This document shows positions 18,313-63,540 of a stretch of DNA of 64,000 nucleotides, piece after piece. The position numbers and the translations under genes were made by a program. The notes beneath the pieces were generated by a model. That model was not told the DNA's origin. It searched no databases and was given only the letters and a program-made list of their open reading frames with translations. The stretch spans positions 1 to 64,000 of the forward strand of contig CALSFV010000141.1 of the NCBI GenBank assembly GCA_943737045.1, in the 5' to 3' direction. Source of the stretch: Parapristionchus giblindavisi. Its lineage: Eukaryota; Nematoda; Chromadorea; Rhabditida; Diplogasteridae. Within the stretch, counting starts at the first letter, position 1, and every line of letters starts with the position of its first letter.

Positions 18313-18768
18313 AACCGACTAAACGAAGAATCAATGAATAAAATGAGAATAAATTAATGAAATGAGGAATAATAGAGAAGAGAAGAATGAGTATGGGACT
18401 AGCTCTCTTCATTCATCATACTCTCTATCATTCTCTCATCGTCTAACACTCTCTCATTCTCATATATTCTCTCACAATCAATGACTAGTCATAGGAATAG
18501 AAGGAATATACATTTGACAATAATCAACGAGATCATATGTAAAATGATTCTGATTGAATTTAAATAATATTCACTTTATTCAAATCAGAGAAAGACATGC
18601 ATTTGTTCTATTTTTATCTTCAGAATGTTTTTTATAAACGAATTGGAGAGAGAGAAAAGAATAAAGCACGCAAAATAACTGGGTAAAAAAGAATGAATAT
18701 ATGTATGATCCTTTTGGCAAAATGCTAAATTCACCCTTAATGAATAATACAGTACATACATATAGCCC
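18313..18768. other. Upstream region of BED copy 2, up to the giant element
   Basis: AT-rich sequence with no exon seen. It should contain the promoter of the minus-strand BED gene. A tract rich in TCTCTCATTC-type repeats lies near 18400-18470. Confidence 0.4.
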
Positions 18769-19082
18769 GGTCGTTTGTGCACGTGCTCTGCTGCGGGTCG
18801 CATTTCATTAATTTCCTTAGCATATGGATTTTTTTCTATTCTCAACGTCTTAATCATGAGTTTCAGTGATAAAAAGTTCTTTTAATGACTAAAGAAAATG
18901 AAACAAATTTTTTATCTATGAGAAAAAACAACTAAAAGGCAAATCACACTGGTCCGAAAATGCTAATTGTATGTAAGTATTATTTTACCGGAAAGGTATA
19001 CTGTACTATTTGCATATCGAACGTACTCCCGTTTTTGAACGGGCGATCGCCGGGAGATATACGGGCGCCCGGTGGGCGAAAT

Positions 19083-19240
19083 ATCGCCCGCGGGCGATTT
19101 GAGGGCGATGTGCGGGCGAACGCCGGGTGTTAGATCGCCCGCGGGCGATCAGCTGGTGATATTAGTGACTCCGATCGCCCGCGGGCGATCTTACTGATCG
19201 ACCGCGGCACATTTTAGGGGAGGATCGCCCGCGGACGATA
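19083..19240. repeat. Subterminal palindromic repeats GATCGCCCGCGGGCGATC
   Basis: Four copies of a perfect or near-perfect palindrome begin at 19083, 19133, 19173 and 19223 (the last with one mismatch), spaced 50, 40 and 50 bases. They lie just inside the inner TIR of the giant element. Regular spacing in helical multiples and dyad symmetry suggest binding sites for a dimeric protein, by analogy with the TNPA sites of En/Spm. Confidence 0.85.
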
Positions 19241-19653
19241 GTGGAAATTGCGCCGGAGAGGGAACCGGGAAATAGAAATAGCGTGTGTGTGTAAAGGAGC
19301 TGAACCCGGATATTTTTTGAATTTTCGAAGTGCGGTTGAATTTTAATTTAGATTAGTCGTTTTACTTATTTTATTGCAGGATATTGAGATTGTTTAAACG
19401 GTGAATTTGATGACCTGTGCGCGCGTCTAGAGTAAGAGTTGTTATGGGACCATATTGTATATCTGCTGTTGTTTCATGAGTGTGTCTTGTTGTTTATGCG
19501 TATTTCTCTTTAATTTTTTACCCGCACCTGACGTGTTTAAATATTAATAATCGTTTTTCAGTGTCTAGGTGGTGGGTCCGATTGACTGTCCGAGAGTCTC
19601 GGAGCGACAGAGTGCCCGATCAGCCCTCGTGACACCATCATCCATCAGGTAAA

Positions 19654-19696
<43 letters not shown>

Positions 19697-19697
19697 G

Positions 19698-19744
<47 letters not shown>
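19654..19744. repeat. (ATT)n microsatellite
   Basis: About 90 bases of ATT trinucleotides with single interruptions, directly after the donor site of the first leader exon. Confidence 0.95.
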
Positions 19745-19746
<2 letters not shown>

Positions 19747-21069
19747 TTCATTCATATCAATCCATTAGCGCTCATACTTATACCTGCTAATAATAATATC
19801 TTTATGTGCGTTTCATGTAAGAATGATAACACATGTATGATGATACATAGAGAAATGCAATAGGGACACATAAATACAATACCACAACGAGGTAGTAAGG
19901 TTTAACTAATAGATAATGATGATAAAACTTTAATTATAAAGCATAGGTAGAAATACAATTACGAAAGATTTTGACATTGGGACAAATTATGGCAGAATTA
20001 GGCAGTAAATTACAAGAATTGACAACTCTGTTCGAGATAAAGTACAAGAAACGCCTGGATTTACAATTATATTTGACAAGTTGAAAATTATTTCTGCGAG
20101 AGGAGTTTCTATTGTAGGAAAATGATAATCGGAAGATAGATGAATTGTCAAATTCTATGAGTCTATTAAGTGCCTTATAAGTGAAACATAAATCAATAAG
20201 TGCGCGTCTACGTTCAAGTGGTTCGAGATTTAGATTTTGCTAGTATTTATATTTATTTTTTACCCACACCTGCCCGGTTTAAATATTAATAATCGTTTTT
20301 CAGTGAATCGATCTCGGTTCTGAGTGGCGCGAGCACCCGATCTACCGCCGTCGCACCATCCATCGATCAGGTAAATATTATTATTATTATTATTATTGTT
20401 ATTATTATTATTGTTATTATTCATTCATTCATTCATTCATTCATATCTATCCATCCATTAGCACTCATATTCATTGCGCCGCTAATATTTATTCTTATAT
20501 TAATTCTCATTGTTCATTCATTCATTCATTCATTCATTCATTCATATCCATATTTATAATCGTATATTAATAATCGTTTTTCAGTGAATCGATCTCGGTT
20601 CTGAGTGGCGCGAGCACCCGATCTACCGCCGTCGCACCATCCATCGATCAGGTAAATATTATTATTATTATTATTATTGTTATTATTATTATTGTTATTA
20701 TTCATTCATTCATTCATTCATTCATATCTATCCATCCATTAGCACTCATATTCATTGCGCCGCTAATATTTATTCTTATATTAATTCTCATTGTTCATTC
20801 ATTCATTCATTCATTCATTCATTCATATCCATATTTATAATCGTATATTAATAATCGTTTTTCAGTGAATCGATCTCGGTTCTGAGTGGCGCGAGCACCC
20901 GATCTACCGCCGTCGCACCATCCATCGATCAGGTAAATATTATTATTATTATTATTATTGTTATTATTATTATTGTTATTATTCATTCATTCATTCATTC
21001 ATTCATATCTATCCATCCATTAGCACTCATATTCATTGCGCCGCTAATATTTATTCTTATATTAATTCT

Positions 21070-21165
21070 CATTGTTCATTCATTCATTCATTCATTCATT
21101 CATTCATTCATTCATTCACTCATTCATTCATTCACTCATTCATTCATTCATTCTTTAATTCCTTC
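21070..21165. repeat. (ATTC)n microsatellite
   Basis: ATTC tetranucleotide repeats closing the tandem leader array; shorter runs sit in every 281-base unit. Confidence 0.95.
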
Positions 21166-21390
21166 ATTCACTCTGTGTGTACTTTTAGAGTTGAGTTGAG
21201 TAAGTGAGTAATAGTTGTTGTGGGACCATATTGTATATCTGCTGTTGTTTCATGAGCGTATCTTGTTGTTTATGCGTATTTCTCTTTAATTTTTTACTCG
21301 CACCAGCCCGGTTTAAATATTAATAATCGTTTTTCAGTCAATCGATCTCGGTTCTGAGTGGCGCGCGCAGATCACAACCCTCCTCGAACC

Positions 21391-24300
21391 ATGATGCCGT
21401 CAAGTATGTCTTACATTTGAATGTAGTGTAATGCTCAGTTTCGGTTTATGTGAAGCATAAAGACCATAGATTCATTTCATCATATATTATTTATAAGCAG
21501 AGTTTAGTCGCTTAATGGAAAATGTTTTTTAATCATTCCTAATCATCGCACTGTTGGATGATATGGAAGATGTGAGCAATATAAAAATCTTTTGCAGGCT
21601 CGAGATGTGTTTGTGGAGATTCCTTCTTGCATGCATTCGGCTGTCCGCTCGCTGGTACTGTTTTCTGACTATCATTGAACAATTTTGCATTACAGTAAAT
21701 ACTACTAATATTATAATACCATTCTGTTTACATTATAAAAACGGTTTATTCAGCTGATGCTGAGACACGAAGAGGAGATAATTTGTCCATTTCTCTAAAG
21801 CGAAAACTGGTCTACAGGCCGACAGAGGATGGGGAGCGTGAGTTGTTTGTTTCACAACAAATAATCATTTTCGTACATATATGTACGGGGTTCATGGAGC
21901 TCCGTTCTACAGGGGCACTCGTTGGGAAAACCCTAGAAGAGATTAATTTTTCAAGGGTATTCGAAAATATTAGATTTTACCTAAATTTCATTTACTTTGC
22001 GTATCCTTAACAATTTTCGGAAATCCTTACTTTTACAGGGAGCACGCCTATGTCGGCATGTATGCTTTCAAAGTAAATGACTCTTTCGAGTACGCGCAAA
22101 TACGTCTTAAAGGGATGGTTACACCTGATTTTCTTTTCATTCCTTGAATTCCGGATTGAGTTCCTCAACGCGATAACTCTACACCAGATATAAAAAGTAA
22201 TTTGTAAAGGTCACTAACAAGGGCCGCACTCGACGCCGGTCAATAATTCCTTATAAAAGGGACACTCAAGGGCGCTGACCTAATTCAACGGTGTCAAACT
22301 CACCACTATCTCTGGTTTATCTAGGTTGACGACAATATTTCTTTTAGAAATTATATTTATAAAACCATATATATTTATAAAAAAATATTATTTTGCAAGG
22401 GTATTTTAGATTTTTGTAAATGTCATGGGCAAACCTCGCGGTTACAGTTCCAAACGCGAAAATTGCCGATTATCTTATTTTATCTTTACATCTACAATGT
22501 CCAAATGCTAGGATTACTGTCATATCACATTCACCACAACTCTCATGGTTGTACTGTGAATTTTATTTTTTATATGAAATTTAAAAACTACAGTACGTCT
22601 CACTGTGGTGCATTATGTTTTATTTTTTTAAAGTTTGTGGTGTTCAAATAAGATGATACTTAATCGTATTAGTCATCTAGTCAATGATTAATTGCTTTAA
22701 CTGATATTAACTATGCTTGTTTGGTTCTTTAGATTAATTTATGATCTCTCATTGTAGATGCGGAGACGTCTTATGCAGAGTGTGATGCAGATGCGCCTGC
22801 GGATGGAGATGTGTACGATGGTTAGTACATTCCCTTTTTGTACTGCTTACTGTATATATCTCCATGTAATGTTGATTTCTTTGTGAATGTGCATGTTTTA
22901 ATGTGACCTGGTAAGGAAAACAAGTTGATCTCATATAAAAGAATAAATACATGTATAAATCATAAATCAAAAAATTGTCATGTTATAAAGATAAATCCTT
23001 TTTTTGGAAACCACTTCAACTTTTATGTTTTTTTAAAGCTAATCAACATGAGATTAACTTGTTTAACTATTTCCAGTCGTTTTTTAGCACGCCTGATCTC
23101 TTTAAGCAGTTTTGTTATAGGTGATGCCATCGAATCGTCGTCGGTTTGTAAAGAAGAAGAGGGTGACGTCGCCGAGAGTGACGAAGAAGGAGAGGGAGCA
23201 ATGGTAGTGAAAAGTAAGCGATTTTTTTTAAATCGAATTTTCTTATCTATTGTTTATTTAAGGACCAGCATCAACACATGAAAGAATTGTTATCGATTCA
23301 TGCAACTGTGCACACTTTGCGTGGAGTTCTCGGGAATACGAACATTCACAGTTTTCGCATCCAGATCCGCTATCTCATCGCGATATCGTAGTTGCATCAA
23401 AGCGAAAGTTCGATGCAGCGGGTATGCGTGAGCAACATTTATGTGCCTCTTGCGGAGCTGAGCGTTCGTCATCATTATCAGCTTGCCCCACCCCGTGCAG
23501 GTACGTACCATGCTCCTTTATCACAAATTATTTATAAAATGGTCCTGAAGATGAGACGGAAAAAATGCGTTAATTCCCCCTAATGTTCGTACACATATTG
23601 TAGAAGTCGTTCAGTTGAACAACTTTTCCATCTGACATGTTGTCCGAAACTCGTGTACAAGAGATGTACAAACGGGTTTAATCCGCTCAAAACTACAATA
23701 TGTGTACGAACGTGAGGGGGTATGAACACAAATTTTTTTCGTCTCATCTTCAGGTCCATTATTTTCTGCCCACATCTACCCACATCTTGTAATTTCAGTA
23801 GCCCTCAGTTGTTAAGCCTTTCATCCTTGCCATTTCGTTCGCTCTATACCGATGTCGTAAAGCGAAATGCGAGTATGATAGTGCAAGAGCATCAACGGAT
23901 TCAGGAAAGGTATATGACGTCTCCTCAACATGTACAAGTTGTTATCTGTAATTCTCCCGTCTTTTGCGCATGTATTCTCGTTTTTTTTCAGAAATTCGGC
24001 TACAATAGCAAGAAGTTGGGTGCCGATCGACCTTTCGGAATGCGAGGCATTCAAAGAAGCGATGGAGACTCGTGCAGAGTTCGACCTTGGCGTCATTAAA
24101 ACTCCTCTACTGTTCAACACCGACGGCACTGTGAAAAATGGACTCGGGTAGGTAGAAGTACCGTTAATTATCATTCTAAGGAATAACTACTTTCAGAAAA
24201 GCTCTTTGGCCGGTGTTCGTTTCGTTGGCCTCGCTACGTATGTCCGAACGGGCACGGCCAAGCAACGTACTGTTCTTGAGACTAGCTACGCTGTCTTCGT

Positions 24301-26562
24301 CGTTCTCAACTCAAGCTGCCGACCTCCTCGTAAGAGGTAATAGCCTATCTTTATCGAGATATGTGAGGAGAATGGAATAAAATCTGCTTTAGGTCTCCAC
24401 GACGAAGTCCTTGAATGCAAAGTGAGATTTGAGGTGGATAATCGAATGTATACGTTCAAACCTACATGGATGGGTGCAGTGCTGGATAAGGCGGTAATGA
24501 ACACTTAATGTTGAATTAGCATTTTGAATTTTGATGCATTCAGGCTCTGATAAAGGTCTACAATCTAGCATCATGGACAGAGGGTGCTGGCGCCAACGCA
24601 TGTAATGCATGCACGGTAGCCGCTGTCCGTTTGGCACGTCGATCTGTCTTCCCTCTGAATATGGGGAAAGGCGAGTAGCTTCATCCCCAGGCATTCCTAA
24701 TTGTAATTGTTCTCAGGGATGAGAACAACAGCGGATGTGCTGTCCTCGGCTGCCGCTCGTACTCATGGTGTTCGAAGTGAGTTGAAACGTGTTCATTAGC
24801 CATTACTATAATATCAATATATTAAGGTCTCACGGAGACACAGAGGATGATTCCGATGAATCGTTGCACGAACGATGTTCTCCATGATGAACTACTCGGC
24901 TACGTGAAGGACTTGGTCCATTGTACGTGTTTTTAACGAGACATATCGCAATGCCCTTTCGCTTAGGTGTGCTCTCGAGGAAGAGCTCACGCCCCCTTAC
25001 GCAGCTTCCGATGAAGCCGGGCACGAGCCAACTGGTCCAGGACACTGTGTGTGGTGTACGTCTACCATCGTCCGCTCTCCATGGATTGTGTACCCCCGCT
25101 ACCGTAGGATCAAGGTCGATGACAGGAATTGAGTATCTTCAGGTTTTGTAATTTGTTTTGTTTTGCATTAATTACTTATTCAATTTCAAGTTCTTCTTGG
25201 TCATTCTACCACCGCTGTGCTACTGTCGTTTGTTCGCTTGCGACCGAGTTACTACAATTATTCTCCTTCTATGTGTTCGACTTCACATATTAGGTTGGTA
25301 CATTTATGAGGGAATTGTCATTTTAGCGAGAGAAGTGACATAGGTTTTTTTGATATGTTACGTCATATGTCAGTTTCTTCAGACTGGCTCTTTTAGTACA
25401 ATGCTCCCATTCTTGCAGGTGATCCTCGCAAAGCGGCTCAATTCTATTTGTTGCTGGGAGATGTAGTTGATGCGCTGAATGAGATGTGGGTGCCTACATT
25501 AGGAGAGGAGACGCTCACCCTAAAGAATCACGTTCGTTTTTAGCAGCACTTGCTTTAAATATCCAAGTACACTCTTTCAGAGTGTACTTGTCCACTCGCA
25601 TAAGAATCCTATAGGCCCACTGTTTTCTGCCTCGTCGTCGATGTTTGAGTCCCTCAATAGAATAGTCAAAAAGGGAACGATAATGTCTTGTCACGTGAGT
25701 GCTATTCATAAAAGGTAAATTTATAAGTAAAAATTCCTTTCAAACAAACTTTTTTTTTGCAGAGCAGTTCTTCTATCCAAGATGACCGATGAACTGACTG
25801 AGATCGCTAGTGATCAGGCGAGTCCAATGCAGCACGCGGCGGAAACGTTGCTCAAGGAATATTGTGGGCGCACTGATCGCGAAGAAGGAGGAACAGTGAG
25901 TCATTAATAGCTGTTTTATTCGGTGTTATTACATTTACCTTGCCTCTCCCCAATCATTGCAAATGTAACACTTCATTATTTTTCGTTAATGTATCCTCTT
26001 ATTTTTTCCAGAGAAAGATGCGCGGAGCTGTCCCATCTTGCAAGCTGGACGAGTGGAATCACCATTGTCAATATTTCATATCCCAACACGACACTGGATA
26101 TGAGTTATGGTTTGCAACTAGCTCTATTTCCATTTAACAACATGTTTACACAGGCCTAATGCAATCGTCGAAGGGAAGAAGATACATTCTTATCTTCTCG
26201 ACTACGGTAGGAAAAGCTGCAACAGCATCATCTCCTACGAGAATGGTGTGGGAGTCAAGTGGGCTCGTGTTGTGTTAGTGGGCTACAAACCCGGAAAAGT
26301 CGTAGTTCTCGCTCAATCGTTCAAAATCGGACGAGTACTTTCGACTTTGGTGGGAGCACTTGAGAAAGATCCTCTTTTTTCTCATGTGGCTAATGTTCTC
26401 AGTGAATGCGAAGATGTTCACATCCTCCGAAGAGTGTTGCCCGTCCAGAATTACCCCTATGTACAGTTAGAGTCTAAATCAATCACTGGTCACGGCATTA
26501 AGGTTTGCATAGAAAGTAGAGAATACATAGTCGCCTCTCCTTTTATTAATACTCGAACGTGA
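21391..26562 (+). CDS. DDE transposase of CACTA/EnSpm-like (CMC) type
   Basis: Many small exons read through in frame: 21391-21403, 21598-21654, 21754-21837, 22758-22820, 23121-23213, 23263-23500, 23799-23909, 23992-24147, 24197-24336, 24393-24493, 24544-24670, 24717-24776, 24827-24922, then 25419-25531, 25581-25714, 25763-25895, 26012-26109, 26154-26562. Early exons give an acidic N-terminus and a Cys cluster (DSCNCAHF, LCASCGAE, CPTPC). The core has TPLLFNTDGTVKNGLGKALW with the probable first catalytic Asp, a second Asp in VLDKA, and GAGANACNACT with a CxxC. The later GPLFSAS..FESLNR block is typical of CMC-type transposases, as is a C-terminal GHGIKV segment. Exon 11 ends at a GC donor (AAAG|GCGAGT). 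The join across 24923-25418 is unresolved: the exon starting at 24967 reaches a stop in the expected frame, so a cryptic intron or a disabling change is possible. Base composition is more GC-rich than host exons. Confidence 0.72.
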
Positions 26563-26770
26563 TCTATGCAAAGATGTCGTTGTATGTTATTATTCAATTA
26601 TATGTATTCAAGTTTTGTTGTTATGTGATTAATGATGATGATCTTATTAAAGAAGTGTTTTTTCGTCACATTTTGTTATTCATATCCGGCTATCCGTCAT
26701 TTGGCGGTTTCACATACTTTTTAAATATCAATCGTTACTTTCAGTAGTTATTATTTAGCCAGACTTCGCC
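26563..26770 (+). promoter_or_regulatory. Short spacer between the two transposon genes
   Basis: About 208 bases separate the transposase stop from the next ATG on the same strand. A TATTTAG acceptor-like site lies 12-18 bases before that ATG. Spacing and acceptor would suit an operon-like transcript resolved by trans-splicing, but a separate promoter cannot be excluded. Confidence 0.35.
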
Positions 26771-29690
26771 ATGACCACTGCGCTCAAGAGCCTATTAAAT
26801 GGTGGATTCACTTCGGTTAGTTTATTTCTTTCCCGCATTATGTGATCCCATTGTAAATTCAGGGTGATATGTTGGATACATATCTGCACATCGAGAAAGA
26901 CGAATATTTCGTTGAGGTGAATTTCGTTGTCTAAAGAATGATAAATCAATGTATGCATTGCAGAATCCTCGTCTGAAACTCGTGAGATCCATGCTGAAGT
27001 CAATGCTATCAAGAGGAGTCGATCTCGTGAGTCTCGTGGTTCTCTTAAATGATAAGCTTCTGTGATGAATGATAAATGATATTTTCAAGGAAACTATCAT
27101 CGACGATATTGTGGATTTGGAAGTGAGTAGTACCGACAGCGCGTCGAATAGTTCTGTGAAAAGCACCGAGGGCACACTGAATAGTCCATTGGTAAGCCCC
27201 GTGGTGTCGTAAATGATATAATACACAACTTAGGAGCCGGAAACAATCCTTGAAGATAAAGAAGGAGATGATGATGCAAGTGGAATCAATACTTCGATGA
27301 GGGAAAGAAAGGTAATTGCATTGTAAAGATAATTCGTGTAATATAATAGATCTGTGCGGCGAAGGTTTAATAGTATAGAATCGGTCGCCGCGGGCGCATG
27401 GTTTTGCCCTCCTGACACTTTTCCATATTTCTAATTTTTCAGCCATTTTTAAAACTTTTACACCTCTTAGAATGACAAAGTTAACGAGGGAGTAATCGAG
27501 GAAATTTGATATGTTTGAAAATGGTATTTTTTATGATATTTCAATGAAATGCTGCTGTCAAAGTTATAAAAATGGGTGAAAAAATGAGAAATATGGAAAA
27601 GGGCTAGGAGGGCAAAACACAACGCCAGAGGCGACCGATTCTATACTATTAAAGTACCGCCATGAAATATGCGGACAATATCACATATTTCACATTAAGC
27701 GAATGTGTGGTCTCAGCCCACTCACCTCAGTACCCAAGGTAGCATCCGAACAAGTGAAGAAAACCAAACCGTCTGTAGCAGGAAGAGATGAGGTGTGCTG
27801 ATAAATTGCATTTTTCTCGCAATATTGCACCTTCATTGACCAATACGATATCTCATTTCAGGTCTCGATTGAGACTGTACAAACGTTCTCCCTGTCTTTG
27901 AAGAGACTGTTATCGATATCGAGAAAACAAGAAGGCGTCGCCGAGGTAATAGTAATAGACTCAGCTATTTTAGTCGGGCCAACAATTTATTCGAGAGTGA
28001 AAGTTGATCCAATAATTTGGTTCTTGAACTTCACTTTGTTCAAAGTGGGGCTGTTAATTAAGCCATTTTTAGCCAAACTTGGTTAAAAATAGGGCCTAAA
28101 CAACAGCCTATATTACTGTACCATACTGTGATTTTATTACTGTTTTCATTACTATCATTTTACGTTTCCCACGAAGCACTTCGTGGTGAAGTATTTTATA
28201 ACGTATGCATGTATCGTGGATGTGGCGTATTGCGGAAGACAAAACAAAACAAAACGCAAAACATTTCAGCAATTTGGTCAATCGCTAGCTGCAGCGCCCT
28301 CACATGATGTGAGCACGTTTGAAGGAGGAAGTGTGGAGGAGAGGATTCAAGGGTTGCTGACGATGGTGAGGTTTTCTGTTTTTACCCTTTGAAATAACCC
28401 AATCGGAAAATGTAGTGTAGAAAGTTTTCGTTTCAGCAACAGATACAAGCAGGATACTTGTCGTCCATGACCTCAGATATGAGACAGCAGGCCGCTGACA
28501 CAAAATCATCTGCAGACGTATTGGTAAGCTCTTTTAAATTAAATCAACTTGGTTTCATGTCCAGGTGTATCTAAGAATCTTGATTACTTTCAGCGTCTCT
28601 TCCGTCTCTCACCTGAAAGACTTCTCGACAGTAATGGAAAGATGATGATATTCGAGGTGCCCATGTTGTGTGGACCTGAGATGGTCGACTTAGCTGATGT
28701 AGCCTTCTCACACATAAATAAGATAAAGAACACCAAAAAGGACATCATGAGCATGTACAGATCCCTCATGTACTCATTCTTTGATGAGGTAAACAAAAAA
28801 TTAAAATTTTAGGCAAAATGTTTTGCTTTCAGTTACTCCCTGAAGATCTGCGCCATACACTTTCCCTTTGTAGAGGAAAAGGACTGACTCCACTGAAAAA
28901 CTCTAAAGCTTACGGCGCCATATTAGGTTCGTGAATCCTCCTGAAATGTAATACGTGGGCAAGGTTTGAACCGACCGTATTTTGCACGTGGTATTAAATA
29001 TAAACAGAGCGAGAGAGGACGCTGAGCATAGGTGGGCGGCTGAAAACGAATATTTTTTGGCCTTGCCTTGCCTTCCCATGGGGGTCTTGCGCATAGCCTT
29101 GTCTTGCGAAAATCGGACAATTTCCAGTCGAATTCGTCAAAAAATAGCCATGCGCACAGCCTTGCCTTACCCTTTCCCGGTTTGCGCACAGCCTTTCCCC
29201 CAGCGTGCCCACCTATGACGCTGAGTATCATTCATACCATTTCAGAGGTCACTCGTATTGTAGCAGGGGCTAAGGAGGATGCTGGATTCGCTGCCCAACT
29301 CGAAGAGGAGATAAGGAAAGCAGCGTGAGTTTATTTTGAAATTTCGTTTTAGACAAGGGGAAAGAGAGGCTGATCGGGAAATTTTGTTGCTTTAGTCCTT
29401 GAACTAAATTTTACAAATCTATAAATGACCTTTTCCAGACGGCGGTACAGAGAGAACCATGCTGACAGAAGAGATAATGTTGATTCAGAAACCGCTGCAG
29501 CTAAACAGGTATATACCCAAAACTCACTTGACAACTTTGTGATTGTGAAGCCTTCAAATTTGCATCCAAAACATGATCATTTTAATAAATTTTGGTAATG
29601 TCAAATGTTCCGTATGATATGACAGTAAATACATGAAAAACAGTTTGTCATCCAAATATGGTATTCTTTCAGTTATCTCCGTCCTCGTGA
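26771..29690 (+). CDS. Transposon-encoded protein with C-terminal BEN-like domain
   Basis: Fourteen exons read in frame: 26771-26815, 26863-26916, 26964-27026, 27090-27191, 27234-27311, 27655-27792, 27862-27945, 28270-28365, 28437-28523, 28594-28788, 28833-28926, 29246-29324, 29439-29508, 29673-29690. The N-terminal half is short, acidic and Ser-rich, without recognised domains. A helical Gln-rich stretch (28270-28523) precedes a compact region with MYRSLMYSFFDEELLPEDL and GKGLTPLKNSKAYGAIL. That resembles a BEN domain: a paired hydrophobic/aromatic start, a Leu-Thr-Pro-Leu turn, and a final AI helix. BEN domains bind DNA and recruit chromatin factors, and also occur in viral and mobile-element proteins. 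Placed directly after a transposase, it may act like the TNPA accessory binder of En/Spm; that is inference. Two MITE-like insertions lie in its introns, one supplying a splice acceptor. Confidence 0.68.
27364..27655. mobile_element. Foldback MITE in an intron, ending at a splice acceptor
   Basis: Arms of about 90 bases (27366-27455 and 27566-27654) are inverted copies, including AATAGTATAGAATCGGTCGCC and GTTTTGCCCTCCT. The right end, CTATTAAAG, provides the acceptor used for the exon starting at 27655. No clear target duplication was found. Confidence 0.75.
29027..29217. mobile_element. hAT-type MITE with perfect 8-base target duplication
   Basis: Termini CATAGGTGGGC and GCCCACCTATG are perfect 11-base inverted repeats flanked by ACGCTGAG on both sides (29019-29026 and 29218-29225). 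The termini differ by one base from those of the element at 7503-7663. It lies in an intron of the BEN-like gene, nested inside the giant transposon. Confidence 0.95.
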
Positions 29691-31948
29691 TCCTCGCCCG
29701 AATCGATTACTCATGCTGTTCGCCTCCCGTCTGATATCTACTACTAGATCTGTAAATATTGATTTCTTTTCCCCCACTTTACAGTATTTCTTATAGTTAT
29801 TAATAACTTTTAACGTAGTAATAACTAGTAAGTTAGGATATGTTAATTTGATCGTTTGTTAAGTGCTTTTACGTGTTGTCCTATCCTTTTTTTCTAGTTT
29901 TTTTTTAGTGAATTAGTTATCAATTAGTGAATTAGTTAGTTGTGAATCAGTGAATTATGACATTTTAGTTTTATAGTGAATTAGTTATTAGTGAATCAGT
30001 GAATTATGGAATTTTAGTTATATAACTAAAACTAGCATTAAGTTATAACAAGTTATAGGTTAATAATTACTTTACTAGCTGTTTAGTTTCGTTTAGCTAT
30101 TTATTAGTTAGATTAAATTAAATTGATTGTTTGTTATTGATCGTTTGTAAATCAATATTATTCTTATTTTCCAAATTGCATTTCTTTGTCACACTTGAGT
30201 GAATTGTGTTGATTTATTTTAAAGAAATGATAATTTATGTAATACAAAAAGAATAAATCTCTTTTGCTTTATAATTATGTTTCATATTTATGAGTATTTA
30301 TCACTGGTTGTATACCAGTACAATATCTTCTATTTTCTATCTTCTTCTATCTATCTTCGTCTATCTTCTTCTTCTTCTAACTATCTTCTATCTTCTATCT
30401 TCCAGACCTTATAATCAAATGTATGTAATCGATCAATACTGCTTACAGGAGGCCGAAAGAGGTGAGGTAATCATAACGCGCTTTTATTAACATTTTGAAA
30501 ACATTGTCCTTTGAAAGTAGAGGGAATAGTATGCGAAAAACGGGCATAATCGTTCTATGTAATAAGATTTCACAATTGTAATAGTGTGAGGGAGAATGAA
30601 AGAATAGTGAGAAATAGAAAGATCAAAGATGAAGTCGTGCACACGACTTCAGCACAGATGGTGAGAGAAGGGAATATTGAATAAAGTTTGAGATTGAAGA
30701 TCATTGATTGATTGATGTGATTATAGATGGAGTATTATTAACATCAGATGTATATTTTCTCATTTATCAACAACATTAAATGATAATGGAGAATGTATCT
30801 CAAATTAATCGGTATAAATTTCGTGAGTTTAAATTTATTGACTACGTTAATCTATAATTATATATTCTATATAATTATTATATATTCTATATAATTATGT
30901 TAATCTATAATTAATTAATTACCTTTATCAAACAAGCAAATCTTTCATTCAAACAATTACTGCTTTTGAAATGAAGATTGTTTCTCTATCTCCATATCTA
31001 TCAATCTTCATATTCTACTATTCATATTGACTAGGTTTGTTACTTATTGATGATTATCGTTAATAATAATATGAATACTAAAGGATGAAATTAGGACCCA
31101 TATCTACGACATTATCAATTAATATGGAATACATAATATTTAATTAAAATTTGTTATGATATGAGTGAAGACGATATTATCAAGGGATTTAAAGGTATAT
31201 AAAAGGCAAGGTATTTATTTAAATATGTATAAAAGTTGCATAAAATATATATGTATAAAATATATATATTACAATAAATTCAAATATATTACGTTACTGT
31301 AAAAGTATTCCGTCGTTCACATACTTAGGCTCTCGTAGCTTTTGTATATGGTTATACCTTTGTTAATAGGCCAAGACTCATTCGCACCCTCCAGGTAAGT
31401 GTTCTTTTATTAGACATTAAAGGAAATCACGAATATTAATGTGCTATAACTGCAGATATTACTTGATATACTGTAGAGTGAAGGAGCACTGTAATTGATA
31501 TAGATTGTTTTCATTGTTGATCTTGTACAATCTCATATTGAAATATGACTGAATCTCAAATCGAGTCAGGTAATGGGTTATTAGTTTAAGAGGACTACAG
31601 TATAAATGATTCTTCTTCACGGTTCAGCTATTGTATGTACAGCAGCTATAGAAGATCCAGCAAGATGATCATGATTCAGGATGAAGTGAGGTAAGAATAC
31701 GGTAGTTAATCATTGATTAATGATTTATTGACGAGTTTTCGTTCGTTCCATACTATGGAACGAACATCATAATCTCGACACTAAAATATAATATAAAATA
31801 TATCCTTTCTCTGTAAATCGATATTTGAGATGAAAAAGACTAATGTACAATTATGTATGTCTTGTAACAAATATTATTTTCTTTACTAGTTACCAGTTAG
31901 TTTACTAGTTAGTCTTTAATTTCATTAGATAGCGAGTTTTCATTGCAG
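29691..31948. other. Gene-free stretch after the BEN-like gene
   Basis: AT-rich, with degenerate short repeats of GTGAATTAGTTA type at 29905-30020 and a CTATCTTCT run at 30330-30410. No exon is supported. From about 31395, splice-like sites and sequence resembling the hairpin units downstream begin to appear. Confidence 0.5.
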
Positions 31949-32136
31949 CTTGGCCCCGGTTCCCCCGAGAGGGACACGAGATGGGCGGAGAGGGAGCCCA
32001 GGTTACTGTAGAATCAGGGATTGAATGAGTACCGCTGGTACAGTTAGGTAAGCTCATTCGGTCGCGCATTCTACAGTAGACCGAGGAAGAGGCCTCTGAT
32101 ATGGATGGGAGAATGGACAAGGAGAGGCCTGAAGAG
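31949..32136 (+). ncRNA. Repeated exon-like unit A with hairpin
   Basis: Bounded by TTTTCATTGCAG and GTGAGAGATAG, this unit opens with a CCCCGGTTCCCCCGAGAGGG core. It then folds a hairpin at 32005-32077: ACTGTAGAA and TTCTACAGT close the base, TGAATGAG and CTCATTCG close the top. The apical segment is a variant of GTACCACTGGTAC. All three frames carry stops, so it looks non-coding. It is the first of a family of seven exon-like units in the 3' part of the giant transposon. Confidence 0.65.
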
Positions 32137-32224
32137 GTGAGAGATAGTCATTTGGTACTTGTGTATCACGTAGTAATCGATGATTGATTGGGTCATAACC
32201 GTAACCAATGATTTTTCATTGCAG

Positions 32225-32280
32225 CTTGCCCCGGTTCCCACGAGAGGGACTACAAACGGCGCCATAAGTGGCCAGAAGAG
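32225..32280 (+). repeat. Short exon-like unit B without hairpin
   Basis: Same acceptor context (TTTTCATTGCAG), the CCCCGGTTCCC.CGAGAGGGAC core and a GCCAGAAGAG|GTGAGA donor as its neighbours, but the hairpin segment is absent. Confidence 0.6.
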
Positions 32281-32539
32281 GTGAGATATAGCCGTAGGGA
32301 ACTTACCTTATATGCAGCTACCAATATCAGATTGGGTCTGAACAATACATTTTGTAGAACTCACATTTTGTGTACGGGCCAGCATATAAATTGGTCGGCT
32401 TGGAAATAACGAGTCACTTTACCTCTTATTTTGCAAAAAAATACACAAAAAAAGAAGAATGATCAATAACATAGTTCTTAAATTGTGAGCTGAACAAAAA
32501 CATATGGTTAAAGCCGTAACTAAGAATTTTTCATTGCAG

Positions 32540-32730
32540 ATTGGCAGGTTCCCCCGAGAGGGAGACGTGATGGGACGGAGAGGCAGCCCCGGTTACTGTA
32601 GAAGTTGCGAATGAATGAGTACCACTAGTATAGTATGGCAAGCTCAAACAATCGTAATTTCTACAGTGAATCGCGGAAGCAGCCTGTGCCCGATATGGAC
32701 CGGAGAATGGACAGGGAGAGGCCGAAACAG
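32540..32730 (+). ncRNA. Repeated exon-like unit C with hairpin
   Basis: Same flanking splice signals. The hairpin at 32595-32667 keeps the ACTGTAGAA/TTCTACAGT base and the GAATGAGTACCACTAGTA apical region, while the middle of the stem differs from unit A with G-T wobble replacements on opposite arms. Confidence 0.65.
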
Positions 32731-33106
32731 GTGAGAGATAATTATTCGGTTCTTGTCCGATACGTACGTACCGATATCTGATTGGGTCTGATTGGGTGTA
32801 TGCGGCGATTATCTATATCCTTATTATTATTATACATTATATTATATCTTTTATTATTATATATCGGTACTGGTCTGATAGGTAGCAACCGAGATCAGAT
32901 TGGGTGAGAACCGTAACCATAGTTCGAGTAGCTAGGTTATCGTTTTTCAAAATCTGCTCAGGTCTTTTGATTTTTGTGAAATTTTGGCTCAAAATCCGGT
33001 CAGATTTTTCGATTTTTGTGAAATTTTGGCTCAAAATCCGGTCAGGCTTGATACTTTGTAACATACTTTTCGACCTATGACCGTAACCAATGATTTTTCA
33101 TTGCAG

Positions 33107-33172
33107 AAGGGCCATTTCCCCCGTGTGGGACCCGAGATGGATCGGACAATGCCCAAAAAGAGGCCAGAAGAG
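33107..33172 (+). repeat. Short exon-like unit D without hairpin
   Basis: Acceptor TTTTCATTGCAG, diverged CCCCCGTGTGGGAC core and donor GAAGAG|GTGAGAGATAG; no hairpin segment. Confidence 0.55.
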
Positions 33173-33462
33173 GTGAGAGATAGTAATTCGGTATTGATCT
33201 GATAGCATACATTGCCAAATCCTCGCAGTGCGATGATTGACCCACTATATAAGGCCCATTTTAGGCCACTTGATAAAAAAAGGAAGCTAAAAATGATGAT
33301 TTTTAAGCGAAAATAATGAATTTTGTGAATAAACCCACCCTATTTCGAGAATTGACCCACTATATAAAAATAAACGGCGAGGATATCGAAAATGTATGAT
33401 CTGATAGGTAGCAACCGAGATCAAATTGGGTTGGAACCATAACCAATGATTTTTGATTGCAG

Positions 33463-33656
33463 ATTGGCCCGGATCCCCCGAGAGGGACGCAACGAGATGG
33501 GTGGAGAGGGAGCCCCGGTTACTGTAGAATCAGGGACTGAATGAGTACCACTGGTATAGTACGGCAAGCTCATTCAGTCTCGACTTCTACAGTTAACCGC
33601 GGGTGCAACCTCCCCCTTGGACACGGCGGAGAAGATGCCAGGACAGGCCGAACCAG
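33463..33656 (+). ncRNA. Repeated exon-like unit E with hairpin
   Basis: Hairpin at 33521-33593, the cleanest copy: ACTGTAGAA/TTCTACAGT at the base, GACTGAATGAG/CTCATTCAGTC at the top, with a small internal loop. Pairing can extend outward through CCCCGGTT and AACCGCGGG. Splice-like flanks are as in the other units. Confidence 0.7.
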
Positions 33657-33903
33657 GTGAGATATAGTACATACGTTTTCATGCCCTCACAGCGTGAGGA
33701 TTGAGCCACTATATAAGGGTAATTTTTTATGTGAAACATTACAATGTAAACGAAAAATAACGATTTTCCACTATATTTCGAACTCGACCCTCTATAACAG
33801 TCTGGTGAGGGCGCCGAAAATGTATGATATAGTAATTCGGTCTGATAGGTACCAACCGAGAACAGATTGGGTTGGAACCGTGACTAGTGATTTTTCATTT
33901 CAG

Positions 33904-34040
33904 ATTTGCCCCGGATCCCCCGAGATGGACATTGTATGGGCGGAGAGGGAGTCCCGGTTACTGTAGATTCAGGGACTGAATGAGTACCACTGGTACAGCA
34001 AGGCAAGCTCATTCAGTCGCGTAGTCTACAGCAGACCGAG
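33904..34040 (+). ncRNA. Repeated exon-like unit F with hairpin
   Basis: Acceptor TTTTCATTTCAG, the same core, then a hairpin at 33960-34032 with TGAATGAGTACCACTGGTAC and AAGGCAAGCTCATTCA. The usual GTGAGAG donor is missing, so this may be a terminal exon. Confidence 0.6.
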
Positions 34041-34128
34041 GAAGAAGCCTCTGGAGCTATGAAGATTATTATTGTGTTGTTTTCTTTGTATTTCTTTGTT
34101 TTGTTTTTCTTTCTTCTTGCAATCCGAG

Positions 34129-34208
34129 GTTGCTTTATAATTTGTGATTGAATGAGTACCACTGGTACAGCAAGGCAAGCTCAAACAGTCACAATTTATA
34201 TAGCAAAC
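34129..34208 (+). ncRNA. Hairpin copy G with rewritten lower stem
   Basis: The apical region GAATGAGTACCACTGGTAC..AAGGCAAGCTCA is nearly identical to the other copies. The lower stem is a different but still complementary sequence (GGTTGCTTTATAATTTGTGA against TCACAATTTATATAGCAAACC). This supports the structure rather than the stem sequence being maintained. Confidence 0.65.
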
Positions 34209-34275
34209 CAAGGAGCCCCCGGCATCCTGGACCCCCTATACCATATTGCCCGCGGGTGAACGTCAGCACATCCAC

Positions 34276-34393
34276 GGGCGATCGTCGGGCGTTAGCCGGA
34301 CGATCACCGGTCGATAGGCGGGCGCCCGCCGGGCGCCCATCCGGCGCCCGCTTATCGACCGGCGATCGCCCGGCTAACGCCCGACGATCGCCC
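34276..34393. repeat. GC-rich subterminal hairpin at the right end of the giant element
   Basis: A stem of about 50 bases (GGGCGATCGTCGGGCGTTAG against CTAACGCCCGACGATCGCCC at its base) encloses a GC-rich loop. It abuts the right inner TIR. The left end has spaced palindromes instead, so the two ends are not symmetrical. Confidence 0.85.
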
Positions 34394-34647
34394 GTTCAAA
34401 AACGGGAGTATGATCGCCGTAAGATATTTTTGAAAGTTTACAGTATTCCCGCAGCGGAGCGCAGCACGTGTACAAAACTCGACCGGGCTGTCCTGTATTT
34501 AAAATTATGTTCGAGTGTTCGCGCGCTAAAACATCTCAAGTTGACTTGTCGACCGTTAAAACAATATTAATATGACAAATATGAAATTATTTATCCAATT
34601 TAGTCTATTCTCTTTTTATTTTTCTATTCCTCTTTCCACACGAGCAG

Positions 34648-36911: not shown

Positions 36912-42621
<5,710 letters not shown>

Positions 42622-60600: not shown

Positions 60601-63540
60601 CCACTTGAACACTATGGTCACGGGTGGTTTGTCTTCAATATACCTTATCGTATATGGTGTTTCTATATGGAAAACATTAAAGAGAACGTGATATTTGTAG
60701 TATATTTCATTATATTCAATTCCATCAAAGTGGTTTTATTAGTATGACTGTATGGAATTAGTGTAGAGCATCTATTCCAATATTATTCATTGCAGCATCT
60801 CTTCAATCAACTCAACCATCAATTGGATCATCTACACTTATGGGTAACAATACTTCTATCTCTACTGTTCCATCTGGAATACCTCCCATGGGAATGGTAA
60901 GTACTATTCAACTTTGATATAATGTATCAATTGTTTATTTATTGATATGATAGAAGCGCATATGTAGGAACAATGGTGATATGGGTGTTACACTAATTAA
61001 TGAGTATGGATGGGAGAGACGGTACTGTCGATTTGTGTCAGAGGGATATTATTGTATCTCATTACAGGGACAAGTACCACCAATGGGTCAATCATCTCAA
61101 TATGCTCAAGCTGCGGCTATGACTGGCAATCCATTCGCTTCATTTGCACCTAAGGTTAGATCGAATTATTGATTGATTTGTATTGATCTCTAAATAGAGA
61201 TTGAGAAGAATATGGTAATATTTAGATGATTTCGTAATAAAAAGTAGTCATAGTAAAATGCAGATAACTTAGTAATTCTTGTCATGGTTGGTGTGAGTAT
61301 TGATTATTTCGTAAGTGAAGCCAATTAGTTGTGGACAAGATTTAGATAGACAGATGTTAGTTTATCAAAACGTTTCGGCGAGAAATCACCATCTTCAGTT
61401 GAAATTTAATACCTACAAGGAAGACTGATGAGTGATAAAATCGAACAGGGTCTAGAGTGAATCAAGGATGAACGAGTGAATGAATGGATAAGGGATATGA
61501 TAGTGAATGAGGGAAATGGAGAGGAGATAAGAGGTAAGAGAGTAGGAAGAGAGGGAGAGAGGTCAGGGCGCTCATGTATTCAATGAAGGAGGAAGATCAA
61601 TGGTGGCAAGTGTGATAGGGGCTTGTTCTTTGGACTGTTCTAACCGGGAATTAATAGATGGATTAAGAGATGCAATATACATCGCCTCAGCAATTTGTCG
61701 ACGAGAGGGGTTGGGTTCTCTGTGAAGAATATGACCAGTGAGGGTTAGTGGGGCACCGTTATGAACAGTTAATGAATGGATAGAAAAAGCACTGGATGAG
61801 TATGAGGGCATAGAGGGGTTAGAAGCAGCTCTACGATGTTCAGCTGCTCTACAATACAAGGGACGACCCGTGTGGCCAACATAAAACTCGTTACAAATAT
61901 CACAGGTGATCTTATAAACAATACCAGAAAAATGACAGCAAACATCCTTAGAATGGGGGCAAAAGATACAATTGGTAGGGTATCGACAAGAAGGCTTATC
62001 TAAGTATCTATTATTGGAGAGCATCGAAAGTAATGAGGGAGGAGGTTTCTCGACAATACGAACATCAATGTTGGCCTTTTTGAATGCCTTTCTTACATCA
62101 TTAGTGAAAACGTCAGAAACAAATGGGATTGAAAATATTGGAGCATTTGTTTTCACATTTGAAACGGATGATTTTTGAAAGGTACTTCTTGAATATCGAT
62201 TGAGAGCATATCCATTCTGTCGACATATATCTAGAGCCTTATATCTACTCTCATTATGAAACTCCTTAGATGATACAGATAATGCAGTTCGAATAGTTGA
62301 AGATACAATATTCTTTTTGATATGATGAGGATGATGAGATTGAGAACTGATAAGAATGTTCATATTAGATGGTTTACGATACCATTTAGTAAGAAATCGA
62401 CCAGAATTGGCATCCAAACATATTTGTAGATTTAGAAATGGCAGCCAATTATTAGTAGGCTTCTCTCTTGTTAAACGAATATTTGGAGAGCCCAAAAATA
62501 TTCAAATTGTTATAAATAGAATCCATATCTTCACGTGACAAAGCAATTATAATATAGTCATCAATATATCGTCCTATCCATACAATACCAGTGCGAATAC
62601 ACCTTTCTTCAATAGAATGCATATAAAGAATAGCGAGAATAGGTGCCAGACGGTTGCCCATTGCTAGGCCTCTCTTTTGACGATAGATAGATGAATCAAA
62701 TGTGAATATGTTACACTTCAGACAATTCTTCAATATAGTACCAATCTCCGAGATAGAAAATCCATATAAATGTAATGATGATGAATTAGTTGATAATAGT
62801 GAAATAACTGCACTAATGGCATCATCATTCTCAACGTTAGTATAGAGCGATTCCACATCGAAACTTTCGAGAATATAATCAATGTTGGGAGTAACTTGGG
62901 ACAAATTAGAGACAACTTGAGATACTCGGGAAAGATGGCATGGAACAAAATTGAGTAATGGGGACAATATGCTAGCTAGAATCCAACTTATACGGTCTGT
63001 TGGTCCTTGAGAACCAGATATGATTGGCCTTATCTTATACAGTTTGGGATCATCGCCTATCAAGGTGACGTCCATCATCTCCTCTCTGTTATCTCCTCTC
63101 CATTTCCCTCATTCACTATCATATCCCTTATCCATTCATTCACTCGTTCATCCTTGATTCACTCTAGACCCTGTTCGATTTTATCACTCATCAGTCTTCC
63201 TTGTAGGTATTAAATTTCAACTGAAGATGGTGATTTCTCGCCGAAACGTTTTGATAAACTAACAGTAGTCATAGTGATGAATGAAATGTAATGAGTGGAT
63301 GGTGTGGATGAGAGATTACGTTTACTTTCTCTTTAGATCTCTTTGTTTGTCTTTTCTCTTTTTAGCTACGATTACCGTAATCTATCCGATCCATGTTCTA
63401 TTGATTTGATGAATATATGAATGAATGAATGAATATAGTAATTACAGACTGATATGACAATACAACAACAACCTCAATTAGGAGGAGGAGGAGGTGTACC
63501 TAATAATTCAAATCCATTCTGGAATCCATTCTTAAGTTGA
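54664..63540 (+). CDS. AGFG1: AGFG-type ArfGAP with FG/NPF repeats
   Basis: Sixteen exons: 54664-54735, 54805-54918, 54993-55108, 55240-55307, 57556-57678, 57904-58028, 58247-58381, 58587-58791, 58858-59115, 59359-59458, 59575-59840, 59980-60040, 60199-60393, 60796-60897, 61068-61154, 63448-63540. The N-terminus is an ArfGAP zinc finger, NCVECGMRGPTYVDMTTTSY followed by CATCAGVLRGLNPPHR (Cx2C-x16-Cx2C), then DKTWLGLYSG and KYERKKWYVSAEE. The rest is low complexity, Ser/Pro/Gln-rich, with repeated DPFGAPQQQAP, FASSNPF and the AGFG-type KYSALAELDE motif, ending NPFWNPFLS. AGFG proteins bind Eps15/EH-domain partners through NPF and act in clathrin adaptor trafficking; the founding member is the HIV Rev-binding protein Hrb. 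Note the arginine-finger region is RGLNPP as in AGFG. Two large introns hold a foldback element and a Penelope-like element. The acceptor for the exon at 59980 was chosen by frame. Confidence 0.92.
56034..56104 (-). other. tRNA-derived module (SINE-like) in the secondary insertion
   Basis: The minus strand begins GCCGAGATGGCTTAGTGG (a perfect A box) and has GGGTTCGAATCCCAC, a perfect B box with a five-base T stem. The 3' end does not pair with the GCCGAGA 5' end, so no acceptor stem forms. It is a tRNA relic or SINE head rather than a working tRNA. Confidence 0.6.
56142..56212. repeat. Long GC-rich hairpin in the secondary insertion
   Basis: A G-run followed by GAGGGACCGCAGCGCG pairs with CGTCGCTCCCTCCCCC across a short TTGAG loop. 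It recalls the G/C-run hairpins in the 15-16.6 kb block, suggesting a related repeat. Confidence 0.65.
56428..56494 (+). other. tRNA-like module, left inner arm
   Basis: GTGGTAGTGGATGAGG resembles an A-box region and GGGTTCGATCCCC is a B box. It is the inverted counterpart of 56845-56915. No acceptor stem forms, so it is not a functional tRNA. Confidence 0.55.
56845..56915 (-). other. tRNA-like module, right inner arm
   Basis: On the minus strand, CCTGTATAGTGTAGAGGATA is followed about 40 bases later by GGGTTCGATCCCC. The better preserved of the two arm copies, it still lacks a paired acceptor stem. Confidence 0.55.
61361..61400 (-). ncRNA. Hammerhead-like ribozyme core, sense copy
   Basis: The minus strand reads CTGAAGA (fits CUGANGA), a stem II of GGTGA/TCGCC around a TTTC loop, then GAAAC. 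A short stem III (GTTT..AAAC) and a TA cleavage dinucleotide can follow. It is in the sense orientation of the retroelement, at its 3' repeat. The stem I partner is not clear. Confidence 0.55.
61572..63078 (-). pseudogene. Penelope-like reverse transcriptase / GIY-YIG endonuclease, frameshifted
   Basis: Two overlapping minus-strand frames (62452-63078 and 61572-62495) together make one polyprotein. The first has reverse transcriptase motifs: SFDVESLYTN (with the metal-binding Asp), RQKRGLAMGNRLAPILA, and RYIDDYIII (the YxDD box). The second opens with the thumb-side LPFLNLQICLD and WYRKPSN, then a Cys-rich linker (CIFCPHSKDVCCHF) and a GIY-YIG nuclease (GIVYKITCDICNEFYVGHTG, then the Arg and EH positions). 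The frames part near 62487-62505 at a T5 run followed by GGG (minus strand), so translation needs a single-base shift: either inactivation or programmed frameshifting. No upstream N-terminal part is visible before 63078, so the element is probably 5'-truncated in coding terms. Confidence 0.9.
63218..63263 (+). ncRNA. Hammerhead-like ribozyme core, inverted copy
   Basis: Same CTGAAGA (63221-63227), GGTGA/TCGCC stem II and GAAAC (63243-63247), with GTTTTGATAAAC as a possible stem III, here on the plus strand because the terminal repeats are inverted. Confidence 0.55.

Follow-up and report, generated by a model that had tools for sequence, protein, structure and literature searches.

The question raised by this locus is whether two spliced genes and a tract of repeated hairpins, lying together between inverted repeats, form one mobile element and, if so, of which kind. 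The locus lies in contig CALSFV010000141.1 of the nematode Parapristionchus giblindavisi (assembly GCA_943737045.1); the window is the whole 64,000-nt stretch of this contig that was analyzed, and coordinates are positions in it unless another contig is named. We conclude that positions 19026-34408 hold a real, well-delimited transposon of the CMC (CACTA/EnSpm, Mirage, Chapaev) type, its nature as a DNA transposon being nearly certain. It is very probable that the whole is a CMC (CACTA/EnSpm-Mirage-like) transposon that has an unrecognized accessory protein and an array of conserved hairpins, which is probably transcribed.

A preliminary description, made from the sequence alone, had placed a 15.7-kb element at 18769-34487 and had proposed that other genome copies of its ends be sought. 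DNA searches of the host genome found 11 such places for each end and moved both borders inward. The left-end query (18769-19260) matched from 19021-19026 onward at 88-100%, whereas its part before that point matched a different repeat, mostly at 81-83%; matches to the right-end query (93-100%) stopped at 34408-34414. Reading all 12 copies of this family, called family A here, from end to end fixed the termini as CTCCC...GGGAG, which gives the window element 15,383 bp on the plus strand (CTCCCGTTTTTGAACGGG...CCCGTTCAAAAACGGGAG) and 11 other copies with the same termini; in 6 of these 11, one terminus has a single-base change, CTCCCC for CTCCCG. A perfect 2-bp target-site duplication flanks 11 of the 12 copies (TA in seven, AT in two, TT in one, CA in one) and in the window reads TA at 19024-19025 and again at 34409-34410. 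The left terminus is followed by G+C-rich subterminal repeats (CGGGCGATC / GATCGCCCGCGGGCGATC; 19026-19240, plus strand), and the right one has such repeats in inverted orientation (34244-34408, minus strand), including 61-nt arms at 34274-34334 and 34335-34395.

The site into which the element inserted can also be recognized. We joined both flanks with one TA into a 361-nt query, with the junction at 262, and scored the best 40 of 921 candidates: the window and at least 39 other places aligned through the junction at 79-84% identity, starting at query positions 1-33 and ending at 297 of 361, that is, 35 bases past the junction. A piece of the right flank (about 299-353 of the query) gives a match of its own, in inverted orientation, at the ends of these repeat copies. 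Since other copies of the target repeat continue across the point where the flanks were joined, the element inserted within an older host repeat, whose two parts now lie outside it at 18764-19023 and 34411-34489. Inverted repeats thus stand at both ends of the segment, as had been described, but the outer pair (18769-19023 and about 34450-34487) belongs to the interrupted older repeat, which rules out 18769-34487 as the extent of the element.

The 11 further copies are 3,572-5,744 bp long, compared with 15,383 bp in the window. Ten of them have wholly lost the coding sequence of both genes, and the remaining one (L025) retains 154 nt of it, corresponding to the first three transposase exons, so that the window element is the only gene-bearing copy of family A found in the assembly. 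Ends that lack the interior, which the preliminary description had named as a finding that would count against it, therefore do exist. However, these short copies look like ordinary internally deleted derivatives and do not speak against a single unit.

Both genes described earlier, on the same strand and spliced, yielded intact models. The first (21391-26562, plus strand) encodes a transposase of 843 aa in 20 coding exons: 21391-21403, 21598-21654, 21754-21837, 22758-22820, 23121-23213, 23263-23500, 23799-23909, 23992-24147, 24197-24329, 24359-24493, 24544-24670 (with a GC donor), 24717-24776, 24827-24922, 24967-25142, 25191-25293, 25419-25531, 25581-25714, 25763-25895, 26012-26109, and 26154-26562. 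The second, which we call open reading frame 2 (ORF2; 26771-29690, plus strand), encodes 362 aa in 14 exons: 26771-26815, 26863-26916, 26964-27026, 27090-27122, 27234-27311, 27700-27792, 27862-27945, 28270-28365, 28437-28523, 28594-28788, 28833-28926, 29246-29324, 29439-29508, and 29673-29690. The splice models were made by hand; neither has an internal stop, all introns are GT-AG but one, which is GC-AG, and one transposase intron would have only 29 nt (24330-24358). Two nested repeats, a MITE-like one in the transposase gene (23538-23760) and an inverted-repeat insert with 94-nt arms, 80% complementary, in ORF2 (27366-27653), fall within introns and hit no exon. Upstream, the stretch 19562-21403 (plus strand) has exon-like units of 87, 67, 67, and 67 nt with splice-site-like borders, the 67-nt ones within 281-bp tandem repeats; the ATG of the transposase model is inside the last of them. 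Such units are repeated in family A, and one was found in the related family described next.

A protein search of the host genome, in which the best 57 of 144 candidates were scored, revealed a second family, B, on at least 12 contigs. It has both genes in the same order and on the same strand as family A, between ends related to those of family A. Three copies that we compared are 99.9% identical across about 17 kb; the one at C275:233252-250231 is 16,980 bp long with a TA/TA duplication, and the copy on C368 has TT/TT. These are the 2 of the 12 contigs with unshared flanks in which the duplication is readable. The other ten have in common either one left flank (C487, C661, C71, C228, and C354) or one right flank (C98, C306, C469, C450, and C144), and in nine of them the contig stops 2.0 or 6.1 kb into the common flank. 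The shared flanks look like assembly joins through the identical 17-kb repeat, which makes the duplications of these ten contigs unreadable. On C275, the first copy is followed at 250232-267219 by an apparent second B-like copy, which matches ORF2 at 261093 and has its right end at 267200-267219; no separate left end for it appeared among the matches listed.

Comparison of the two families supports both gene models. The transposases share 52% amino acid identity over the aligned core, outside of which lie the first four exons of the window model, its least certain part, although the peptide SRCVCGDSFLHAFGC has the counterpart SVCKCGDSFLHAIDC in family B. The DDE-transposase-like motifs of the preliminary description stand, with residues identical in A and B: D212 (NTDG), D307 (LDK), C329 and C332 (CNAC), H534 and H539 (NHSVLVH), and E557 (MFESLN), numbered on a 791-aa version of the model. 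The catalytic D and H-pair roles are assigned here by motif order and by known CACTA motifs, not by structure, and D392 (LHDE) is conserved as well. On this assignment the protein has three catalytic acidic residues, and its C(2)C and H(4)H pairs fall between the second D and the E; the part of the source consulted names pairs so placed, C(2)C followed by H(3-4)H, as a hallmark of CMC transposases (PMC12730594). The 2-bp duplication of family A falls in the CMC range of 2-5 bp. Because of the motif order, a hint of DUF1258, and the target-site duplication, the element most likely belongs to the CMC superfamily, on the Mirage/DUF1258 side; DUF1258 is described, in the section of the source drawn on here, as the Mirage group, near Transposase_21/CACTA (PMC3985635).

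ORF2 of family B has 299 aa in 11 exons and 44% identity with that of family A; nothing in the B model corresponds to exons 5 and 6 of the family A gene. The two genes differ at 41.5, 34.4, and 63.9% of first, second, and third codon positions and at 38 of 55 four-fold sites; silent sites are near saturation. These codon-position differences, read here rather than a dN/dS ratio, suggest that the protein is held by selection. With 45 of 45 candidates scored, the host genome gave no ORF2 match at E<=1 outside the window element and the 12 B-bearing contigs; two of the matches are on C275. A role as an accessory transposition factor is plausible for this putative companion protein. The end-sharing copies, the target-site duplications, the empty-site comparison, and family B accordingly support the proposal that the segment moves as one unit and encodes a CACTA-like transposase together with a second protein.

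The 3' part of the element holds the repeated hairpins that had been noticed at the outset. In a tract of exon-like units (31949-34222, plus strand), five hairpins lie at 31990-32095, 32580-32685, 33506-33611, 33945-34050, and 34117-34222, and two units without a hairpin at 32225-32280 and 33107-33172. Homologs of the five hairpins are found in all 11 shortened A copies, in family B, and at two other places in the genome (L080 and L081), and in both A and B one hairpin ends no more than 190 bp from the right end. The hairpin is about 90 nt long, with a strongly conserved apical part. For a covariation test, 39 of 135 rows were taken, giving 37 distinct sequences, 27 of which entered the test; rows on the opposite strand, rows of the same score (presumed identical), and nine low-scoring rows in plus orientation (47.7-65.3 bits) were left aside. 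In these 27 hairpins, 90.1% of 999 cells are paired (84.6 +/- 0.5 in shuffled alignments, reached in 0 of 500), two-sided changes affect 14 of 37 pairs (9.2 +/- 1.6; 3 of 500) and 48 cells (18.1 +/- 3.4; 0 of 500), and the covariation score is 0.220 (0.144 +/- 0.007; 0 of 500), with 0.036-0.071 for structures slid along the alignment. The count of further pair types is weaker (32 versus 29.5 in shuffled alignments; 56 of 500). These figures are to be read with the consensus structure having been drawn from 5 of the 27 rows, and kinship among rows can beat such shuffles without structure. The results support the view that pairing is kept by compensatory change. Four of the hairpins were folded; z-scores ranged from -5.1 to -7.9 for the plus strand and from -2.4 to -6.5 for the minus strand, and the plus-strand energy was the lower in three of the four.

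The hairpins also have recurrent borders. Among ten hairpins from the window and family B, the terminal one of B being taken from the homolog search and not from the border-pattern search, six have both an acceptor-like and a donor-like border, two an acceptor only, and two neither. The acceptor-like border, present in 8 of 10, resembles TTTTTCATTGCAG and the donor-like one, present in 6 of 10, resembles GTGAGATATAG, at near-fixed distances; 3' units are bordered by CATTGCAG| and CAG|GTGAGA. Hairpin-less units of 56-68 nt bear the same borders. In the set of exon-like units, which was picked by patterns requiring AG and GT, border conservation is partly by construction. The array is probably transcribed as RNA, to judge from these features.

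We also considered whether the 3' units might be coding cassettes or a known RNA. For the hairpin-bearing units, coding was rejected: 16 of 26 lengths are not divisible by three (10 are), and in the window the three complete units all contain stops in every frame. This rejection does not cover the hairpin-less units, 11 of 14 of which are divisible by three, both of those in the window being open in at least two frames. A known RNA was ruled out by an Rfam search of 29700-34500, which gave seven matches with E values of 0.23-7.9, all below the gathering scores. TATA-like CCACTATATAAGG motifs, possible promoters, occur between 3' units of the window (33242-33254 and 33706-33718) and also in family B, in L080, and in some A copies.

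In the mechanism that we propose, the DDE transposase would cut at CTCCC/GGGAG and would mobilize deleted copies too, and ORF2 would be a second transposition factor, whose binding sites might be the hairpins or the G+C-rich subterminal repeats. Plus-strand transcription of the 3' units, followed by splicing, would yield an RNA with several hairpins, which might act in cis on the element mRNA or be bound by an element protein. The fullest form of this proposal, a transposon that makes a dedicated non-coding RNA from spliced, tandem, expandable exons, most with a hairpin, and that uses it together with ORF2 in transposition or its control, seems to us rather unlikely. It is quite possible, if short of probable, that the hairpins act as DNA instead, as subterminal binding sites or cruciforms for the transposase or ORF2, the splice-like borders being part of the DNA sites. 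Their place in the right subterminal region, their presence in all 11 shortened A copies, and the hairpin close to the right end in both families are what one would expect of cis-acting transposition sites; moreover, palindromes fold on both strands, and the minus strand had a slightly lower energy in one of the four hairpins. However, the absolute z-score was larger on the plus strand in all four, the two kinds of borders recur at near-fixed distances in 6 of 10 hairpins, and non-Watson-Crick cells favor G-U over A-C on the plus strand (130 versus 32 of 1369 cells; 19 versus 9 pair columns), also when one nearly invariant U-G pair (34 of the 130) is set aside (96 versus 32 cells; 18 versus 9 columns), an excess that is descriptive rather than formally tested, as the cells are related and a transcription-linked mutation bias could produce it. 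The structured-RNA tract of the preliminary description is accordingly retained as a conserved, covarying hairpin array, with its action as RNA kept conditional.

Other explanations concern the genes. That two unrelated host genes were trapped between repeats, the 15.4 kb not moving as a unit, would agree with the presence of the genes in only one A copy of the assembly, but is extremely improbable given the exact ends and duplication, the empty-site comparison, and the recurrence of both genes between related ends in another multi-copy family. ORF2 had further been taken for a BEN-domain DNA-binding protein on account of a BEN-like block at its end, and we find this identity unsupported and improbable. 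An hhalign comparison of the hand-picked C-terminus of ORF2 (A and B) with a BEN set consisting of two PDB fragments and a hand-written consensus gave P=0.0012 and a plausible register, with a probability of only 19%, and in a separate run with other settings, on the same kind of hand-picked region and hand-written consensus, the real score exceeded all 200 column shuffles; this comparison scored 21.8 and 14.9 under the differing settings. By contrast, Pfam with a limit of E<=10 reported BEN neither in the two ORF2 proteins nor in excised regions, while a hand-written control consensus scored E=1.4e-14; whole ORF2 against the two PDB BEN fragments alone gave P=0.37, with 67 of 200 shuffles reaching the real score; and no BEN chain was among the matches listed in a PDB profile search. 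A BEN search of the host genome had no match, and its controls were silent as well, which makes it uninformative.

Several observations weigh against our preferred reading of a CMC transposon with a companion protein and a probably transcribed array. The copy L025 has no 2-bp duplication (GA/TG). For the transposase, Pfam gave DUF1258 matches that stayed below the gathering score in both families (E=6e-4 in A and 0.0046 in B) and reported no Transposase_21 in either; PDB and NCBIfam searches gave nothing useful. The termini are CTCCC...GGGAG in A and CTCCC...CCGGAG in B, whereas CMCT elements are said, in the portion of the source used, to have CA..TG 'in most cases' (PMC12730594). Among the best approximately 8000 candidates per protein search, no homologs were found for the transposase (residues 190-640 at E<=10; with B at E<=1) or for ORF2 (with B at E<=1). 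The hairpin at 34117-34222 has neither splice-like border and that at 33945-34050 has no donor, and both the RNA status and the splicing of the 3' units are read from sequence.

Set against known systems, the element looks like a variant of a known superfamily and not like a new kind of element. It resembles CMC elements of the Mirage/DUF1258 side in its D, D, C(2)C, H(4)H, E order, its weak DUF1258 match, its 2-bp duplication, its subterminal repeats, and its internally deleted copies, and differs from them in its CTCCC termini, in a second gene without a homolog in the searches made, and in the conserved hairpin array. Maize En/Spm has a transposase and a second element-encoded protein, TNPA, together with subterminal repeats, and ORF2 would take the place that TNPA holds there; the likeness is one of proposed role, and the gene models here are separate and non-overlapping. 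Among animal elements, SmTRC1, a TRC element, is CACTA-related and is described, in the part of its report consulted, with 2-bp duplications, CCC-core termini, tandem repeats, and truncated copies (PMC1636069), all of which have their like here. That same part of the report gives it a Transposase_21 domain, which Pfam does not report here, and one ORF and no hairpin array, compared with two genes and an array in our element (PMC1636069). The fungal ESTA elements likewise have an EnSpm-like transposase and 2-bp duplications, often TA, according to the passages of the source used (PMC12730594), whereas the duplication here is not strictly TA and Pfam reports no TET/JBP domain in either protein. 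Among the titles and abstract openings listed by searches of the open-licence literature, none described a CMC-type transposase with a companion gene and a hairpin array.

The hairpin also occurs elsewhere in the genome. A pattern of 29 bases from its top matched 182 places, 100 of which were listed; the reversed control matched none. At least 52 of the listed tops lie on contig C92 (242,078-269,555), spaced 415-619 bp apart, and at about 200-310 bp from the hairpins there recurs a terminus-like ATCCCCTTTTTGAACGGGCG, with one mismatch to the terminus pattern; contigs carrying element ends or genes account for the other 48. This tandem array of about 27.5 kb is apparently a satellite grown from the right end of an element. 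The preliminary description would also have been challenged by the interior occurring alone: the genes were not found outside elements in the candidates scored, and among the places listed C92 is the one where the hairpin occurs apart from a complete element. L080 (on C57), L081 (on C21), and contigs C18, C60, C94, C219, C222, C224, C398, and C446 have right ends about 73% like that of the window, and the hairpin units recur in L080 and L081. None of these places was among the transposase matches listed (best 57 of 144), and they likely form a third element group.

Beyond the element, the window holds a PNTB_4TM match (pyridine nucleotide transhydrogenase 4TM; 39665-40084, plus strand; E=2.9e-11), likely a host exon downstream of it, and a reverse transcriptase fragment (62452-63108, minus strand; Pfam RVT_1, E=5.5e-8).

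From a biological perspective, the presence of the hairpin array in two gene-bearing families, two related loci, and eleven short copies suggests that it serves as a signal in cis, as RNA or as DNA, which is not in the usual picture of CMC elements. ORF2, found in the host genome only within these elements, may represent a new class of transposition factor, and on C92 a satellite appears to have been seeded by a transposon end. With 99.9% identity among the three copies compared, family B looks recent enough for a test of activity. If the array does prove to work as RNA, it would couple a structured RNA with a eukaryotic CMC transposase, a combination that would be new.

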